Part shown: piece after piece, positions 5,774 to 62,384 of the stretch
Layout of the letters: each line of letters starts with the position of its first letter
Position numbering within the stretch: the first letter of the stretch is position 1
Assembly: GCA_025603075.1 (NCBI GenBank)
Contig: MU626313.1
Span: 51,650 to 115,649, forward strand
Reading direction: 5' to 3'
Origin: Neoconidiobolus thromboides FSU 785
Taxonomy: Eukaryota > Entomophthoromycota > Entomophthoromycetes > Entomophthorales > Neoconidiobolaceae
Length of the DNA: 64,000 nt
Notes under the pieces: model-generated
The model's database searches: none
What the model was told of the DNA's origin: nothing
What the model saw: only the letters and a program-made list of their open reading frames with translations
Position numbers and translations under genes: made by a program

Positions 5774-7060
5774 TCAAAATAAATAAAAATTAGAAAAAGG
5801 AAGAATCTTTGAGAGTATATCAATATCAGACTTATTCACAGCTAAGTAATCAATTAGAAAAAACGTAGAATAAGCCATAGTATTTAAACAAGTTTCATTA
5901 GTTATAGTTAATTGTCCATGTTTAAACTTCACTTGAGTAACATTAGGGAATAGCCTTAATACATTAAAGAGTACTTCAATACTTAAATAACACTCTTTAA
6001 ACACTAATTTAGTGGTAGAGGGGTTTATTGTATTACTTGTCTCATTTCTACTACAAAAATAAGGCGCCGTTATGGACTCATTTTCATCACTTTCATTACT
6101 ATAGAAGACGACTGTTGAAACTGTTTTAAACTTCGATAGTCTTAATATCACATCTTCTAGTTCATTGTTAAGCCTGATATACACTTTATTCAAGTGAGAC
6201 ATTGAGTTAACAGTTATACCATCAATTAACTTTAAATCAATCAACCCTAAATTCTGGAACTCAAAATGATTTTTATTGCTAATGCAATCTAACGTAGCTA
6301 GCTTTTTAAACGGAACTTTTAATGTAGTCAAATTAGTTAAATCACCAAAATATTCTAACCTAAATATTCTACTAAACTTTCCATTAAGTACAAGCTTTTT
6401 TAAATTAGTGAATGACTTGGTTTTATTAAAATTGTATGGAACCACAAATCTAGTACATATTAAATATAAGGTGCCTAAATTCTGGAAGCTTTTTTGTAGT
6501 ATTTCTAAACCAAACAAATTGATGGCAAAACCTTGAATCTTTAATTTCTTTAATCTATTAGGGTTGAGATATTCAGCTACGAGAGAAATGGCTATCAATC
6601 CGGTTACTTTTAAATCAAACTCCTCCACCTGGAATAAGATGCTGGCAAAATTCAACATAGTAGCTTTATATTTTTCATCGATTACAAAGGTTATTTTTTT
6701 TAAAAATTTAAAAGTAAAATCAAATATTGTTCTTGAAAATGGATCATTTGAATTGAAATGAATAGTGAAATTAGATATATTAGTATATAAGTTCAAATCA
6801 AGCTCATGATTGCTCTTTATCATCAACCTCTTTACTTTATTTGGATACTTTTTTATTATCCTATCATGATCTTCCATTCGCTTTTTACTTGGTATATAGC
6901 TATAATATAATGAGTTTCTAAATAGAACACCATTTATTATTTTATAGATTGTTTTGTTAAGAGCCATAAGGTTGGACAATCCATTTAGATCTATATACAA
7001 GAATATTTCTTCTATTAAAACATCTGGTAAGTCATCTAGCTTTAGCTTGCTTTGGTTCAT
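5774..7060 (-). CDS. F-box / leucine-rich-repeat protein
   Basis: 428-aa intronless gene. Residues about 8-45 form an F-box (LDDLPDVLIEEIFLYIDLN, then LMALNKTIY), the module that docks to Skp1 in SCF ubiquitin ligases. The rest shows irregular LRR-like strands (LGTLYLICTRF, LKKLVLNG, LTTLKVPF, LGLIDLKLIDG). The substrate cannot be read from sequence. A second, clearly related gene lies at 56703-58034; the two share the N-terminal layout and motifs such as NPxxLKxLKxxxxxxNLxxLE. Large F-box/LRR families with no introns are typical of lineage-specific expansions. Confidence 0.75.
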   Translation of the reverse strand: MNQSKLKLDDLPDVLIEEIFLYIDLNGLSNLMALNKTIYKIINGVLFRNSLYYSYIPSKKRMEDHDRIIKKYPNKVKRLMIKSNHELDLNLYTNISNFTIHFNSNDPFSRTIFDFTFKFLKKITFVIDEKYKATMLNFASILFQVEEFDLKVTGLIAISLVAEYLNPNRLKKLKIQGFAINLFGLEILQKSFQNLGTLYLICTRFVVPYNFNKTKSFTNLKKLVLNGKFSRIFRLEYFGDLTNLTTLKVPFKKLATLDCISNKNHFEFQNLGLIDLKLIDGITVNSMSHLNKVYIRLNNELEDVILRLSKFKTVSTVVFYSNESDENESITAPYFCSRNETSNTINPSTTKLVFKECYLSIEVLFNVLRLFPNVTQVKFKHGQLTITNETCLNTMAYSTFFLIDYLAVNKSDIDILSKILPFSNFYLF

Positions 7061-7236
7061 AATAAAAAATGGTTAGAAAAGTGAAAATATTCTTGAGCTT
7101 TACGGTTGTTTTTCTAGAATTTGTATTACTGACTTTATTGCTCAAATCCTCATTTACATTAAAAAACTCAAATTGACAAAATGAATTTAAAAAATAGTAT
7201 TGAGTAAATCGTCATCTTTTTAAGTTTTGATTAGGA

Positions 7237-7971
7237 ATGGTATATTTATTAAGTATAATAAATCAAGAAGGGATTGAAAGATATAACAAATTATTTCAGC
7301 CAGTAATTTTCAAAAAGGCCGAGGAGTATAATCAATTTAAAGATACTTTGTTTGATATACTATCTAATAGAGAAGAATATGAAGTAAATCTAATGTGAAA
7401 TTTAGTTTATTTTTATAAATATAAATAGGGTCCTATATTTGAATTTCATAATACTGAGAATATGATTGGTATATATATATATATTAAAGGTGATATTTAT
7501 CGTTTGTAGTCTATAAGAAGTTTGCTTCGTTATATTTCATGGCATATATTAATCCTAAAGAAGTAAGAGCTTTTATTTACTTTATTCAATTATTTACTTT
7601 CATAGAACGAATTCGAAGTATTGGACATTTTAAACCATATAATGGGTATATTATTATCATTTTTTTAAACTTGATTTTAATGATAAATAGAGACCTTAAG
7701 CATTTCGTTTGAAAGCTTTGTAAGAAAATTTTATTGTTAGCCATTTTTCAAGCTAATTTGTGTTTTTAGTGCGAATTAGATATATCCTTTTTTGAAAAAT
7801 AATCTATTACATAATCATAGTAAAAAGACTATTTCCTTAACCACTATATACATTATATATCACTTAGATAAGGTAAACTTAATTATTAGTGAGTTTTTCA
7901 ATATCAATGGGGAAATTCAAGCAACGGATCCTATTCAAATACTAACTTCAATTGAACAATTTGAGGAGTAA
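7237..7971 (+). CDS. AP (clathrin adaptor) complex sigma subunit, 7 exons, one AT-AC intron
   Basis: Small chain of a heterotetrameric adaptor complex in vesicle coat formation. Exons: 7237-7383, 7429-7468, 7510-7562, 7606-7645, 7691-7719, 7770-7781, 7852-7971, giving 146 aa. Family landmarks: YKKFASLYFM, NEFEVLDILNHIMETL, FCELD followed by IIYHLDKVNLII, and NGEIQATDPIQILTSIEQ. Five introns are GT-AG. The sixth, 7782-7851, starts ATATCCTTT and ends AC, and only this join restores the conserved CELD-IIYHLDKV block; reading on, or any GT-AG choice, gives a stop. Exon 6 is only 12 nt. The sequence is divergent from AP-1/2/3/4 sigma chains as I remember them, so I do not name the complex. Confidence 0.82.
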
Positions 7972-13380: not shown

Positions 13381-14118
13381 TTAGTTTTTACTTTCGTTAG
13401 TATGATTATCCCCTTCATTTTCTTGAGATGTAGATTCTTCCATGACAAAATCTTCATACTGTGTCTTTTCCTTAAATGGCCTTTTGCCTAACAATTGTAC
13501 CATATCTGAACGATTCAATACTTCTTTTTCTAATAAAAGTTGTGCCACCTTTTCAATATCTGCCTTTTTATCTGTTAACAATTTAGTAGTACGATCATAG
13601 GCTTCTTGGATTAAGTTACGAGCTTCAATGTCCATAAGTTTAGCAGTATCCTCTGAGTAAGGTTTTTGGAATTGTTGACCATCATCCCCAGAGAAAGAAA
13701 TTTGGCCTACTCGAGGATTCATGCCAAAGGAGCTTATTTGAGAATACGCAAGCTTGGTAACTTTTTGTAAATCATCTTGAGCTCCAGTAGTGATAGTGTT
13801 AAAGAAAATTTGTTCAGAAACTCTTCCACCTAAAGTCATACACATCCTGTCGAAAAGTTGCTCTCTTGTAAAGAGATATTGATCTTTAGGTAAATATTGA
13901 GCATAACCTAAGGCTCCAGCTCCACGTGGAATAATAGAAACTTTGAGTAATGGATCGGCATGTTGTAAATACCATCCAGAAACAGCATGACCTGCTTCAT
14001 GGTAAGCAACAGTTTTCTTTTCTTCTGGTGACAAAACTTTAGTCTTCTTTTCTAAACCAGCTATAACACGCTCAATAGCTTGCTCAAAGTGAGTTTCTTC
14101 TACTTCGTCTTTCATATG

Positions 14119-14163
<45 letters not shown>

Positions 14164-15648
14164 AGCACCAGCGAAACCTGGAGTCAAGGCAGCCATTTTT
14201 TTAGCTATCGTTTCTTTGTTAAGACTGGTAACGATAGGACGAAGATGCACTTTAAAAATGGCGCTTCTTCCAATGATATCTGGTCTATCAATTGAAATAT
14301 GACGATCAAAACGACCCGGGCGCATAAGAGCTGAATCTAATACATCAGGTCTATTTGTACCTGCTAAAACTACAACGTGGGAATCAGTACCAAAACCATC
14401 CATTTCGACTAATAATTGATTAAGTGTAGTTTCTCTTTCATCATTACCACCGAAACCACTATTTTTACCAGCACGAGATTTACCAATGGCATCAATTTCA
14501 TCAACGAAAATAATACATGGTGCATTTTTTTTAGCTGTAGCAAATAAATCACGAACTCTTGAGGCACCAACACCAACGAACATTTCAACGAATTCAGATC
14601 CAGAAACACTGAGGAAGGGTACTCCGGCTTCACCAGCAGTAGCTTTAGCGAGTAAGGTTTTACCAGTTCCTGGGGGACCAGATAAGATAGCGCCTCTTGG
14701 AATTTTAGCGCCTAGTCTTTCATATGAACGTGGATCCTTTAAAAATTTAACAAACTCCATGATTTCTTCCTTGGCTTCATCCATACCAGCAACATCCTTA
14801 AATTTCATTTTAATATCTGTTTCTTGGTTAAAAAGCTTAGCTTTGGATTTTCCGATTCCAAAGATACCTCCCTTGGAGCCTGTCCCTGCACGACGAGTCA
14901 TCCATACAAGCAACCCTGCAATAAGTAAAGTTGGTGCAAGGTTCATAAATAATCCAAACATATTGACTTGATCTTTATAAATAACTGGGATAAATTGTTG
15001 TGGAGGTATTTCTAACTCTCTTTGAGCTTGCTCTAATTGACGTTCAAAGGCATCGATACTCCCAATATTAAACACAATTTGTTGTGAATTACCATTTGGA
15101 TCAGAGTGAAGTTTAACTTTGACCATTTTTTTATTAATTACTTGAAGACTATGAACAAGACCTTTTTCTAAGTAATTTGTGCGGAACTCTTGCCAACTAA
15201 CTTCATGAACATTTGAACCGGATTTCAAATATTCATAAGCAATTAATGAAGCAATTACCATCAAATAAGTACCTTGGGAACTACCAAATTGGTTATTGTT
15301 ATTTTCGTTTGGAGATCCCTTATTGTCTTTTTGATTGCTATTTTCATTCTCTGATTTTTTGGTTTGTTTAGAACCAAAAAATTGCTCAAATCCTCTTGGA
15401 AACTGTTTAAAAATTTCATCTTCCTCTAATTTATTTTCGTCCTTTTTATCTTCTTTTTTAACTTTTTCTTTTTCTTTGTCTTTTGAATCAGAGTATTGTC
15501 TTATGATGTGTTTATTCAATGGCTTGTACTTCATCATCTGGAGATTAGCCTTTGAATTCAAGTTGTTTAAGTTTTTGGATGCTCTCAATATAGAGCTTGA
15601 GTTTAATATAGGCCCAGCCTTGGTTCTTAAAAGTGAAGCCAAAACCAT
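13381..15648 (-). CDS. AFG3: Mitochondrial m-AAA protease subunit (Afg3/Yta12 family)
   Basis: 755-aa ATP-dependent zinc metalloprotease of the inner mitochondrial membrane, which degrades unfolded membrane proteins and matures some others. Seen in order: a basic, Ser/Asn-rich presequence (1-60); a charged linker; two membrane spans at about 127-145 and 230-252; an AAA module with Walker A GPPGTGKT (~324-331), Walker B FVDEID (~380), sensor and second region of homology (RPGRFDRHI); and a M41 peptidase with HEAGH (~550-554). The order and length are typical of Afg3/Yta12; FtsH of bacteria is shorter. Intronless, unlike most conserved genes in the window. Whether it is the Afg3 or the Yta12 paralogue is not settled. 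Confidence 0.93.
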
Positions 15649-17661
15649 ATTAAAATACCTAATTGTTTAAAATCAATAAAAGTTGCTAATAAGCTGAAGA
15701 TATCATTTTATATTAATTATAAAAATTCTTACTTAGTCTAAAATTTAATATAATAAAAAATAATTTGTAATTTAATTCAAGCTTTATTTCATTTTTTACA
15801 ATAATTTTGAACAGAATCGAATAAAAATTATGGTTTTAGGAGATTTTTACAGAACTTACTAGACAATTACGTAGTAGTTGGTACAAATTTGTTTTAGGAC
15901 TAAGTATTCACTAAAAATCAAAATTGAATTATTCCATGTAGAAATAAAACATCATTAATAATCGAACGTTGTCTATAAATAATTAATATTCTTTATGTTA
16001 TTTTTTTCATACATTTTCAAAGACTTGATAAAAGTATCAATTATATTATATTAGATTTCTTCATTTTTGAAGCTTTGATTCTAATAAATCGTCTATTAGA
16101 AGATATTCTAAAGTACAACCACGACATAATAAACAATGAAATTGCAATTATATATTATCCTTGAAGATTTCTCAGCTTTCGATTATTTTAATAATTTATA
16201 TCTGATTTCAAGATTCCTTATATTACTTAGTCAAAACTACAACTAACAGACAACCATGTAAATTTCGCAAATAAGCTACTATAGGTCAATAGATGTTTAA
16301 GTATAAACAATAGTTTATATTAATTTCTATAACATCAAATCACTGGTGACTTCTTAACGACAATTTATTTTGAACATTATAGCTCTACTCCATATTTATA
16401 TCTTACTTAATTAAGTGTTAACTTCTTTTAACTAAATATGGGGTCTAATTTATTTCTCTTAAATTGTTCCTTTAAATTCTCGAAAAAAAGTTGTAAGTTG
16501 TAAGTTTAAAAATAAACAGTAGATTTAACTAATCTAAACATTCAGTCTTTTTTAAACAAATCAACTTTTTATATTTATAAAACGAAATTTACGTGTTTAG
16601 TGGACCATCGTGAACTTTCTGTAATCCTCGTGCTTAAAGGGAACGGGTATATAATCACATAAAGGTCATAACGCTATAATAATTAAATCTATTTCTTTAG
16701 CATTAGCTTAGAGTTATCATCTTGAGAGTAAGAACAGTGTTCAATATTGAGACATCTTCAACAGATTAAACAGATTACCTAATCGATGAATCAAAACATA
16801 TTTAAAAGTATTTAAGGTAAATAAAAAATCCTAGATACCTTTATTCTACTAGTGAGATAGAATAAAGATTTAATAATAATTAGTATTTGATATAGATAGT
16901 TAGAGACAAATTAAATGAAGTAATTTTACATAAGTAGATAAAAATTTCTAATATAAATCATCATCCTGATTTTCAGTTTTTTATAAAAAATACAATGAAA
17001 ATGTGCCCAATAAAATATAAAATAAAATAATACAATACAATAATACAATACAATACAATATTATAACATTTGTTGAAAAGACATTAAGTAACTTATCAAT
17101 AAGATCATAAATATAAACCACATTTAAAGGTTATTTTTATTTAATGAAGATATTATTAATTCTTGCTCAGTATTCAATTATTATAAAATTATAATAAAGC
17201 TAACTGGCTACTGTTTGAAACTTTTGAGTATTATGTTAAAAATAAAACTAACAATAAACGATACACCTTATATCATGAAAAAATAAAGTAAAATGCGAGA
17301 TTACTAAACTAGGCACTATAAGGTATATTTAACTGCTTAGAATCTTGATATTTTATTTATTTATTAAAGTAACAAAAGAATGGATGTAAATTTGTAAAAC
17401 TTTTTATTCCATATTTCATCCCTTATCCATGATACATTAAGATTGGTGTACAAAAAGGGTTATAACTTATAAGCTTGATTGTATTAGAAACTTTGTCTAA
17501 CTATCTTCATTTGAATGAGGGTACAAGAACTGATCCAATTCAATCAAAAGTGAGATAAAACATAGTTAATAAAAGTGTGTAAAGCAGTACTTCAAATTGG
17601 AAATATAAAAAGATAATAGAAACCCCTTTAAGAAAATAAAAAAGCATTTTTGAAGAGAACC
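15649..17661. other. 2-kb AT-rich spacer
   Basis: Separates two divergently transcribed genes. No coding sequence or MITE copy is recognised. A short TACAA-type tandem repeat lies at about 17030-17061. Confidence 0.5.
17030..17061. repeat. Short AATAC tandem repeat
   Basis: Several direct copies of AATAC/AATACAATAC in a row, in noncoding sequence. Confidence 0.7.
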
Positions 17662-18781: not shown

Positions 18782-23604
<4,823 letters not shown>

Positions 23605-56702: not shown

Positions 56703-58034
56703 ATGAATTTGACTTTTGATAATTTACCAGACCTTGTTTTAATCGAAATATTCCATCAATGTACTCCAGTTAGTTTATTTGGACTTGCTCTTTTAAATAA
56801 AAGGATCTATAATATAGTTTTTGAAGTGATACGATCAAACTTTGAATGGAATATATATGAGAAATGTGGAGGCGAATACAAAAGATTACAAAAGCAATTC
56901 ATCAAAAATAATATTAATAAAGTTAAGAGTTTATCTATTTATAACGTTGATAGTTTAAAGCTATTGGATTCATGTTCTAATGTGAAAAAAATCAACTTGA
57001 ATGCTTTTGTGGCGTTACCCCACTGGGATGAGATTATTGTTTCGAACAAGTTATTAATGTTGACGAATCTAAAAGTCACATTAAAAGTAACAGATTATGA
57101 TAAATTTGTAAGCATATTTAAAGATATACTACACAATATTGTGAATTTTGAAGTTTATATTGAAGAGTTTTACTTGGCTAAATTCATAGAGATTTTAAAT
57201 CCATACAAACTGAAATGTCTGAAAGTTGAATCAATGTGTCTCAATTTGAATGAATTAGAGATATTTAAAGGAAGATTTGTAAAATTAGGAGCATTACAAC
57301 TTTATGGATATGAAATTAAGATACCAACTGGTTTTAAAGATGAATCTAGTTTCCAATCTCTTAAAAAATTAAATATCGTTGGGAGTCCATCACATAATTT
57401 TAAATTAGATTACTTGGGAGACTTGGGAATGATAACATTGCTAAATATAAACTTACTGGGATTTGAGCATGACTTGATTCTATTTAAGGATTCATCAAAG
57501 TCCAAAGTCCAAACTTTAAAGTTAAGGGAGTGTATAAATTTTAATTTAAACAATGTATCAGATATGCCTTTGCTGAAAAAAGTATCTATACATGGAAACG
57601 AGTTATTTATGATTATGATAGAAGACGTTTTGCCACAATCTAATATTCGGATCTTTGAGGCACGTGAACTATACTATCCTGAAGTCAGATACTTGACCAA
57701 ACAAAGCGATAGCTTAATTAATAATTATTCCTATTTAAGTAACTATAAAGAAGAGTTAAAGCTTAATATATCGATTATATCTAAATCTGTGATGGAATTT
57801 ACTATTAAATCCTCTTGTATCACCTTTCAAAGCTTTTTCAATACTATAAAGTCTTTCCCAAATCTCACACTAGTAAAATGTAATTTAGGGTGCATTTATG
57901 ACGAAGACTGTAAGGTCGACAATAACCAATCGTTTTATTTTCAGATCTCAAAATCTTTTGATATAAATCATGATACTTTAATACTCAAAAGGCTATCTGT
58001 GGTTCCGTTAGTTAGACTCGAGGAGGTATATTAG
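56703..58034 (+). CDS. F-box / leucine-rich-repeat protein
   Basis: 443-aa intronless paralogue of the gene at 5774-7060. The F-box is at residues about 4-42 (FDNLPDLVLIEIFHQCTPVS, then ALLNKRIYNIV). LRR-like strands follow (LGALQLYGYEI, LKKLNIVG, TLLNINLLG, VQTLKLREC). Shared motifs with its paralogue include NPYKLKCLKVE and the late SFPNLTLVKC versus LFPNVTQVKF, so the two genes match along their length. Predicted substrate-recognition subunit of an SCF ligase; substrate unknown. Confidence 0.78.
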   Translation: MNLTFDNLPDLVLIEIFHQCTPVSLFGLALLNKRIYNIVFEVIRSNFEWNIYEKCGGEYKRLQKQFIKNNINKVKSLSIYNVDSLKLLDSCSNVKKINLNAFVALPHWDEIIVSNKLLMLTNLKVTLKVTDYDKFVSIFKDILHNIVNFEVYIEEFYLAKFIEILNPYKLKCLKVESMCLNLNELEIFKGRFVKLGALQLYGYEIKIPTGFKDESSFQSLKKLNIVGSPSHNFKLDYLGDLGMITLLNINLLGFEHDLILFKDSSKSKVQTLKLRECINFNLNNVSDMPLLKKVSIHGNELFMIMIEDVLPQSNIRIFEARELYYPEVRYLTKQSDSLINNYSYLSNYKEELKLNISIISKSVMEFTIKSSCITFQSFFNTIKSFPNLTLVKCNLGCIYDEDCKVDNNQSFYFQISKSFDINHDTLILKRLSVVPLVRLEEVY

Positions 58035-60746: not shown

Positions 60747-61829
60747 TTAAAGTTTAGAAGAGACAGACTTAAATCCATTTGGATTCTTTTTTTGCCAACG
60801 CCAGAGATCATCACACATATCTTGTAAGCCACGCTTAGCTTTCCATCCCAATTCCTTCTGAGCTAAAGAAGGGTCTGCAACTACTTCGGCTACGTCACCA
60901 GGTCTACGAGCAGCTATTTTATATGCTATTTTACGTTGACTAGCCTTTTCCATTGCTTGGATCATTTCTAATACAGAGTAGCCTCTCCCAGTTCCTAAAT
61001 TATAGATCCAGCATCCATTATTACTTAGACTGGCTCCATTTTTAGGGAATCTACTAAGAGCATGCACATGCCCAAGAGCAAGATCAGTGACATGAATGTA
61101 ATCCCTGACACCTGTTCCATCTCTTGTTGGATAATCATTTCCAAAAACGTCAACTTGTTGAAGTTTACCAATAGCAACCTGAGATACATAAGGCATTAAG
61201 TTATTGGGAATACCATTCGGGACTTCACCAATATGGCCTGAAATATCAGCACCAACTGGGTTAAAATAGCGTAATAAAACGGCTGATAAATTTTTATTTC
61301 CGTTACAAGCGTCTTTTATGATTTCTTCATTAAATAGTTTGGTACGTCCATAAGGATTAGTGCACCCGGTTTTACTATTTTCATCTAAAGGCAACTTTTC
61401 AGGAATACCGTAAACTGTTGCAGATGAAGAGAAAACAATACGATTAACTAAGTATTTTTCCATCAATTTCAATAAGATTACTGTTGTTCCAATGTTAACA
61501 GAATAATACTCTAACGGAATCGTGCTTGATTCTCCAACTGCTTTCAAACCAGCAAAGTGAATTACAGCGTCAAATTTGTAAGTTTGAAATAAAGACTCAA
61601 TTTTATTTTCATCTCTTAAATCGTATTTGTAGAACTTTAATTTTTTACCACCTAATTGTTCTACTCGTTTTAAGCTTTCCTCGCTACTGTTGCATAGATT
61701 ATCGACAACAACTACATTACAATTTAATTTGAGTAACTCCAAAACTGTGTGGCTACCAATGAACCCTGCTCCACCAGTGACTAAGATTACTGATTGATTA
61801 TTTAACTCGAACCCGTTTTGAATTTGCAT
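60747..61829 (-). CDS. UDP-glucose 4-epimerase
   Basis: 360-aa intronless short-chain dehydrogenase/reductase that interconverts UDP-glucose and UDP-galactose (Leloir pathway and galactosylation). NAD-binding GGAGFIGSH at 19-27, VVDNLCNS (adenine ribose), HFAGLKAVGES, SSSATVYG with the catalytic Ser136, YxxxK as Tyr160 and Lys164 (NPYGRTK), RYFNPVGA, GTGVRDYIHVTDLA and AARRPGDVAEVVA. It lacks the mutarotase domain of yeast Gal10, so it is the stand-alone GalE/GALE form. No other galactose gene lies beside it. Confidence 0.95.
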   Translation of the reverse strand: MQIQNGFELNNQSVILVTGGAGFIGSHTVLELLKLNCNVVVVDNLCNSSEESLKRVEQLGGKKLKFYKYDLRDENKIESLFQTYKFDAVIHFAGLKAVGESSTIPLEYYSVNIGTTVILLKLMEKYLVNRIVFSSSATVYGIPEKLPLDENSKTGCTNPYGRTKLFNEEIIKDACNGNKNLSAVLLRYFNPVGADISGHIGEVPNGIPNNLMPYVSQVAIGKLQQVDVFGNDYPTRDGTGVRDYIHVTDLALGHVHALSRFPKNGASLSNNGCWIYNLGTGRGYSVLEMIQAMEKASQRKIAYKIAARRPGDVAEVVADPSLAQKELGWKAKRGLQDMCDDLWRWQKKNPNGFKSVSSKL

Positions 61830-62384
61830 AATAATTTTAACTAAAAGCTATTTACATGAAATTCTCAATTTTATTTGTTTAGTCCATCCAATCATAAACC
61901 AGATTAAATTACATACATTGTAATATATTTTTAAATATTGATTTATTTTTAAACATTGATTTATTTTTAGTTTATAAGTTTAAAATAGGATTATCAAAAT
62001 GAAATTTAAAAAGTGTAGCTCATTGTGGAACTGTGTTTTCTATTCTTTAGTAGTATTTTTTTTAAAGGTTTTAAAAATGATATAAGCTAGTAACTAAAAC
62101 TTATATTAGATTAATATATTGTACCTTTCCTTTATATTTTATTTTGCAATTGATAATATCAAAATAAGTTAAAAGGTATGTCTAAAATAGTATACCCCAA
62201 AACTATTTAATAAAAACACTTGAGAACAAAAAATAGCTATTATAATTAGCTTCATTTTTAAGCTTTTGATTTTTTTTAAGTTTTTAAAGTCTTAAATTTT
62301 ATATAATTTGTTTTAATAAATAAAAAGTAATATAAAAACAAAAGTACCCAATATAGTTTTAAGTTACTTTATTATAATTTATAT
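61830..62384. other. Spacer upstream of the epimerase
   Basis: AT-rich, no coding sequence or MITE recognised. Confidence 0.5.

Follow-up and report, generated by a model that had tools for sequence, protein, structure and literature searches.

The window analysed here is a stretch of 64,000 nucleotides from Neoconidiobolus thromboides FSU 785. On its forward strand, at 7237-7971, lies a gene of seven exons that together form one uninterrupted reading frame, from start codon to stop codon, for a protein of 146 residues (Table 1). The protein is a member of the clathrin adaptor small-chain family (Pfam PF01217, 80.1 bits), and the closest solved structure is AP-3 sigma-1 (E 6.3e-18, residues 2-142). 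Although AP-3 sigma-1 is of the same family and gives the best solved match, the gene product has been deposited for strain FSU 785 merely as a 'snare-like protein', which is identical to our joined AP-3 sigma in 146/146 residues. Besides this identical protein, a word-based protein search gave no public relative at E 0.001 among its 10 candidates. Several other long open frames lie in the window. By eye, those at 5774-7072 (-) and 56703-58034 (+) resemble related F-box/leucine-rich-repeat proteins, while 13381-15666 (-) is presumably a mitochondrial FtsH-type protease, 19134-23060 (-) presumably a multidrug-resistance-type ABC transporter, and 60747-61847 (-) presumably a UDP-glucose epimerase.

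Table 1. Predicted exons, introns and splice elements of the AP-3 sigma gene (window positions), and further candidate AT-AC introns in the genome (contig:position).
Feature	Position	Strand	Remarks
AP-3 sigma exon 1, start codon at 7237	7237..7383	+	joined translation matches AP-3 sigma-1 and the deposited protein
AP-3 sigma intron 1, GT-AG, 45 nt	7384..7428	+	
AP-3 sigma exon 2	7429..7468	+	
AP-3 sigma intron 2, GT-AG, 41 nt	7469..7509	+	
AP-3 sigma exon 3	7510..7562	+	
AP-3 sigma intron 3, GT-AG, 43 nt	7563..7605	+	
AP-3 sigma exon 4	7606..7645	+	
AP-3 sigma intron 4, GT-AG, 45 nt	7646..7690	+	
AP-3 sigma exon 5	7691..7719	+	
AP-3 sigma intron 5, GT-AG, 50 nt	7720..7769	+	
AP-3 sigma exon 6, 12-nt micro-exon coding CELD	7770..7781	+	aligned with CELD of AP-3 sigma-1
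AP-3 sigma intron 6, U12-type AT-AC, 70 nt, phase 0	7782..7851	+	
U12-type 5' splice site ATATCCTTTTT	7782..7792	+	+4 to +11 pairable with the U11 5' end (AAAAAGGG)
U12-type branch site TTCCTTAAC	7833..7841	+	TCCTTA pairs with UAAGGA of the genome's U12 (6 pairs)
3' splice site AC	7850..7851	+	11 nt from second A of TTAAC to intron end
AP-3 sigma exon 7, including stop codon	7852..7971	+	
MCM9 AT-AC intron	C28:118959		join gap-free against solved orthologue
PPME1 AT-AC intron	C73:74957		looser homology match
HBS1 AT-AC intron	C6:41807		join gap-free against solved orthologue
Inositol polyphosphate multikinase AT-AC intron	C264:13946		looser homology match
PP5 AT-AC intron	C59:4195		join gap-free against solved orthologue
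RAB2 AT-AC intron	C87:45540		aligned from the third residue, join at residue 4
AT-AC intron, gene without Pfam or PDB-sequence identity	C60:8170		splice motifs and open frames only
AT-AC intron, gene without Pfam or PDB-sequence identity	C93:29200		splice motifs and open frames only

The splice pattern of the AP-3 sigma gene

An earlier sequence-only reading had proposed that intron 6 of this gene is a U12-type AT-AC intron, placing it at 7782-7851 with TTCCTTAAC at 7833-7841 and a terminal AC ending 10 nt further on. All of these positions are exact, and the intron is indeed the sixth, preceded by five GT-AG introns of 41-50 nt. It opens with ATATCCTTTTTTG, which agrees with the 5' splice site consensus ATATCCTT at 7782-7789, and near its 3' splice site the stretch at 7833-7841 fits the branch site pattern TTCCTTRAY. 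Joining at the AT and AC termini restores both the frame and the conserved protein. The same reading had claimed that this join restores a conserved CELD/IIYHLDKV block, and the alignment bears this out: around the junction at 7781/7852, the residues SFESFCELD/IIYHLDKVNLI align with AP-3 sigma-1 (FENVCELDLIFHVDKVHNI) without a gap near the join, CELD/IIYHLDKV lying against CELDLIFHVDKV, and the protein so joined is the one that scores 80.1 bits against PF01217. As the 12-nt micro-exon lies between a GT-AG and an AT-AC intron, two spliceosomes must act on its two sides.

That reading had held further that no GT-AG join keeps the frame here. This stands for donors within 7770-7860 and acceptors up to 7900, but not for the donor of intron 5 at 7720. 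Joined to 7779, 7827, 7872 or 7893, this donor leaves the frame open and drops exon 6, while a fifth join, to 7752, is in phase yet runs into a stop codon. By one of the four open joins, the major spliceosome could skip exon 6, splicing GT-AG from 7720 to a downstream AG. However, CELD is lost in all of these open joins, and more of the CELD/IIYHLDKV block is lost in some; the two of the four that were scored reach 61.4 bits (7827) and 49.8 bits (7872), against 80.1 bits for the AT-AC join. Furthermore, the AT-AC join is present in the deposited protein, and skipping would turn the U12-type elements and the sister introns described below into a coincidence. We consider exon skipping of this kind highly improbable. 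The other patterns scored also compare poorly with 80.1 bits: one GC-AG join gave 54.7 bits, two other AT-AC joins 67.9 and 72.6 bits, and retention 55.8 bits, the retained intron leading to a stop after CELDISFFEK. On the strength of its letters and of the protein it restores, 7782-7851 is very probably a genuine AT-AC intron.

That the deposited protein has exactly these residues on either side of the join fits with splicing of intron 6 as predicted. The deposited annotation used the same AT-AC join, although this could stem from homology modelling instead of transcripts. We compared the deposited models for two AT-AC genes, one of which has the join while the other lacks it: the deposited inositol polyphosphate multikinase is a 'partial' model of 213 aa that starts with ICLENLL, just past its AT-AC intron (C264:13946-14016). 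Since this model starts after the intron, the annotation did not routinely model AT-AC introns, and public gene models in such genomes can break at them.

Sister AT-AC introns

Beside the one in AP-3 sigma, searching the genome with patterns turned up eight more AT-AC introns; for six of these, homology identifies the gene (Table 1). On inspection by eye, we judged the sister introns to be real because the sequence makes coding sense on either flank. The join in RAB2 falls at residue 4, so that its upstream side is hardly tested, and a frame of 89 aa runs through the PPME1 intron, so that stops alone cannot exclude retention there. All nine introns are 61-74 nt long, start with ATATCCTTTTT and end in TAC. 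The branch motif is CCTTAAC in seven and TCTTAAC in the other two, and its second A lies 10-15 nt from the intron end. Each of the nine also carries a T-run to +11, which was demanded by one of the four genome patterns; 7/9 were also retrieved by patterns without this requirement.

The four patterns gave 9, 11, 16 and 33 rows (1, 7, 2 and 15 in the reversed controls), some of which overlap. Each of the four accepted GT starts; the strict pattern (9 rows) used a gap of 20-50, and the remaining three (11, 16 and 33 rows) took either AC or AG ends. From the relaxed pattern, with 33 places against 15 in its reversed control, seven introns (8 rows) were counted as real; its examination left out the GT-start places on C332 and C363 and the AT-start place on C372. 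Among the GT-start candidates, seven sites lie inside open frames of 63-1021 aa on either strand, and two more have no coding sense on both flanks; we judged all of these to be chance matches. AT-start candidates that were not counted either have open frames across the site or were rejected by eye. We thus recognised no GT-AG minor introns with these four motif-filtered genome patterns, which introns with looser sites or other gap lengths could escape.

How much weight can the motif itself bear? The two-part motif occurs once in the window, where a first-order Markov model expects 0.017 per 64 kb. Over the whole genome, the same model (gap 20-60) expects about six by chance, which agrees with the rejection of 6/9 matches of the strict pattern. 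The bare motif is therefore only mildly improbable, and the case for intron 6 rests on its frame-restoring context. These chance figures, both the expectation and the rejected matches, are what could be said for a gene broken at this point, as a decayed copy or through an assembly error, with the motif present by accident. Against this, the joined frame is open throughout, the conserved residues are exactly restored, and equal architecture is seen in other conserved genes, which makes a broken gene scarcely credible.

Minor-spliceosome RNAs and proteins

We searched the assembly (23.1 Mb in 392 contigs) with Rfam models for the four minor snRNAs, using whole-genome E-values. U11 (RF00548) was found at C14:11757-11880 with 65.4 bits (cut-off 39, E 1.3e-10). 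The match for U12 (RF00007), at C12:151736-151892, has 34.7 bits and lies under its cut-off of 53, but is significant, with E 3.0e-4 against 0.74 for the next match. U4atac (RF00618), at C25:43214-43362, is likewise under its cut-off yet significant (40.9 bits, cut-off 53, E 1.2e-4). U6atac (RF00619), at C1:41699-41843, is barely above its own (33.6 bits, cut-off 33, E 1.2e-5), with a match in 0/14 control genomes. None of the 14 control genomes exceeded the cut-off for any of the four RNAs. Weak matches were seen in the controls for U12 (three, E<=1), U11 (three, E<=5) and U4atac (one, E<=1), and none for U6atac (E<=0.001); as the control genomes with matches are prokaryotes, the control is only a mild one.

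The U11 candidate starts at its 5' end with AAAAAGGGC, the U12 candidate carries a GUAAGGA box, and the U4atac candidate has both the 3' end AAUUUUUGGAA and the 5' pairing region. Known U11, U12 and U4atac share this same 5' end, GUAAGGA box and 3' element, whereas here U12 and U4atac score below the Rfam gathering scores.

The stretch AAAAAGGG of U11 can form seven Watson-Crick pairs and one G-U pair with positions +4 to +11 of the 5' splice site, and these positions are pairable in 9/9 introns; among the five introns computed, the lowest-energy U11 duplex for the AP-3 intron lies one position further on, at +5 to +12, by a slight preference. The UAAGGA of U12 pairs with the branch site in 6/6 positions in five of the nine introns, AP-3 sigma among them, and in the other four it forms 5/6 pairs, or four plus a G-U pair or better.

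These pairings bear on the class of the intron. AT-AC termini alone do not settle whether an intron is of U2 or U12 type, and the major spliceosome is known to splice a small number of AT-AC introns that carry U2-type sites. Judged by its termini, intron 6 could therefore also be processed by the major, U2-type machinery. However, the genome's own U11 has complementarity to its 5' site ATATCCTTTTT, as has the genome's own U12 to its branch site TTCCTTAAC, and the nine AT-AC introns, at 61-74 nt, are longer than the gene's five GT-AG introns (41-50 nt). We regard processing by the major spliceosome as very unlikely.

Among the proteins, a U11/U12-25K gene lies on C2. Its starting point was a weak half-match; with the exons joined, it scores 42.1 bits to PF18036 (cut-off 22.8). 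Among solved structures, the U11/U12 25 kDa protein is its closest relative (E 0.0026), and a deposited hypothetical protein of N. thromboides corresponds to it (133 aa, 96% identity). A second PF18036 match, on C136, appeared by eye to be a ubiquitin-ribosomal protein fusion and was dropped. U11-48K was not convincingly found in the genome with PF05253, where the match has 19.3 bits against a cut-off of 21.1 and covers 17/25 positions, and one of the 14 controls scored above the cut-off.

The sequence-only reading had suggested that this genome still keeps a minor spliceosome, and that the idea would fall if components of that machine were completely absent. The opposite was found, in the form of the snRNA matches and the 25K gene; together with the eight further AT-AC introns, the four snRNA matches and this gene support the suggestion. 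The search it had proposed for U11, U12, U4atac and U6atac gave matches to all four, with U12 and U4atac below cut-off, and its proposed search for U11/U12 proteins succeeded for 25K but gave no convincing 48K.

Taken together, we put the probability at roughly 95% that 7782-7851 is a U12-type AT-AC intron of the AP-3 sigma gene, removed by a minor spliceosome encoded in the same genome. In such a model, U11 would bind the 5' splice site of intron 6 and U12 the branch site TTCCTTAAC; U4atac and U6atac would then join together with U5. The minor spliceosome of N. thromboides would excise intron 6 from the AP-3 sigma transcript, and the exons would be joined in phase 0 as ELD/IIY. Here we infer that the snRNAs would be expressed, the spliceosome assembled and intron 6 actually spliced.

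A probable, altered U6atac and the comparison with known systems

The U6atac candidate has a 5' GUGUUG, a GAGAGA core, stems that pair with U4atac, and a T-run at its 3' end. Set beside the Rfam consensus AAAGGAGAGAAGGUUAGCA, the N. thromboides sequence AGUUGAGAGAUAAUUGGCA keeps GAGAGA but has GUUG for AAGG, and in place of the 5'-splice-site pairing box AAGGAGAG it has GUUGAGAG. Canonical U6atac carries AAGG before AGAG, exactly where N. thromboides has GUUG, and it is this AAGG that pairs with CCUU in the 5' splice site. In the aligned register, solely +4 and +5 form Watson-Crick pairs beside the U6atac core, followed by two mismatches. The best predicted duplexes between U6atac and the 5' site amount to -3.9 to -5.6 kcal/mol, compared with -7.1 to -8.7 kcal/mol for the consensus (five introns). 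A register scan of the 5' site against U6atac was uninformative because of G-U pairs.

The predicted pairing with U4atac is intact and strong in its stems. Stem II between U4atac and U6atac reaches -26.0 kcal/mol, with 0/1000 shuffles as low, and stem I -9.6 kcal/mol (3/1000), while the duplex test over the whole length was weak, with 2/100 shuffles as low. Both sides of these stems depart from the Rfam consensus, which speaks for U4atac and U6atac as genuine partners that have evolved in step. For the helix between U12 and U6atac, we obtained -5.3 kcal/mol for the N. thromboides pair and the Rfam consensus pair alike; as this helix needs a shifted register in N. thromboides, we draw no claim from it.

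Could the true U6atac lie elsewhere? The Rfam genome search for U6atac scored the best 46 of 1136 candidates. Searching the genome for AAAGGAGAGAAGGTTAGCA with up to three mismatches, as the mark of a canonical second U6atac, gave nine places (five in the reversed control), and in Rfam none of the eight places checked is a U6atac. We also considered whether the match might be a major U6, and rejected this, normal U6 being present twice at 82.6 bits. The C1 locus is thus probably U6atac, judged by its sequence and predicted pairings, with a reservation over the missing box. Separately, a third U6 copy was noted at C90:55918-56019 (35 bits); it looks degraded, has a changed ACAGAGA and is probably a U6 pseudogene.

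A tentative reading of these observations, which we hold with considerable doubt, is that N. thromboides has a reduced and re-tuned minor spliceosome. It would act on AT-AC introns alone, whose near-invariant 5' site ATATCCTTTTT would be recognised chiefly through a lengthened U11 helix (+4 to +11), and its U6atac, having lost most of the complementarity of AAGGA, would perhaps pair differently or more weakly at activation. We hypothesise that U11 may have taken over more of the definition of the 5' site. How the 5' splice site passes from U11 to a U6atac that lacks the box is a testable question.

The kind of intron itself is already established in early-diverging fungi. The sequence-only reading had described minor introns as known from few fungal lineages, and the documented groups are more numerous than this phrase may suggest: one paper (PMC10639083) counts 205 minor introns in Rhizophagus irregularis and 249 in Basidiobolus meristosporus, and also documents them in Spizellomyces and Neocallimastigomycetes. 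Another paper (PMC2846911) gives 8-9 AT-AC and 8-12 GT-AG minor introns for Phycomyces, and one AT-AC and 2-3 GT-AG minor introns for Rhizopus. N. thromboides is an entomophthoralean fungus, and NCBI sets Basidiobolus in a phylum of its own. The main text of PMC10639083 is without 'Conidiobolus' or any word beginning 'entomophthor'. Among the papers listed, our literature searches gave no report for Entomophthoromycotina and no occurrence of 'Conidiobolus', and a search by gene names listed no paper with 'U12-type intron'. What may be new, therefore, is the altered U6atac and the restriction of the recognised set to AT-AC introns.

With all four snRNAs, N. thromboides brings a probable minor spliceosome to the Entomophthoromycotina in NCBI's present outline of that group. 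Its fungal genome is small and rich in AT, and minor introns can be recognised in it by the handful at least. In animals, plants and early-diverging fungi, U12-type AT-AC introns have the same ATATCCTT and TTCCTTAAC, the same short distance from branch site to 3' splice site and the same AT-AC termini, and the genomes have the minor snRNAs. Compared with those systems, N. thromboides stands apart in that the minor introns recognised by our motif-filtered search are AT-AC only (9/9), all of them with the T-run to +11.
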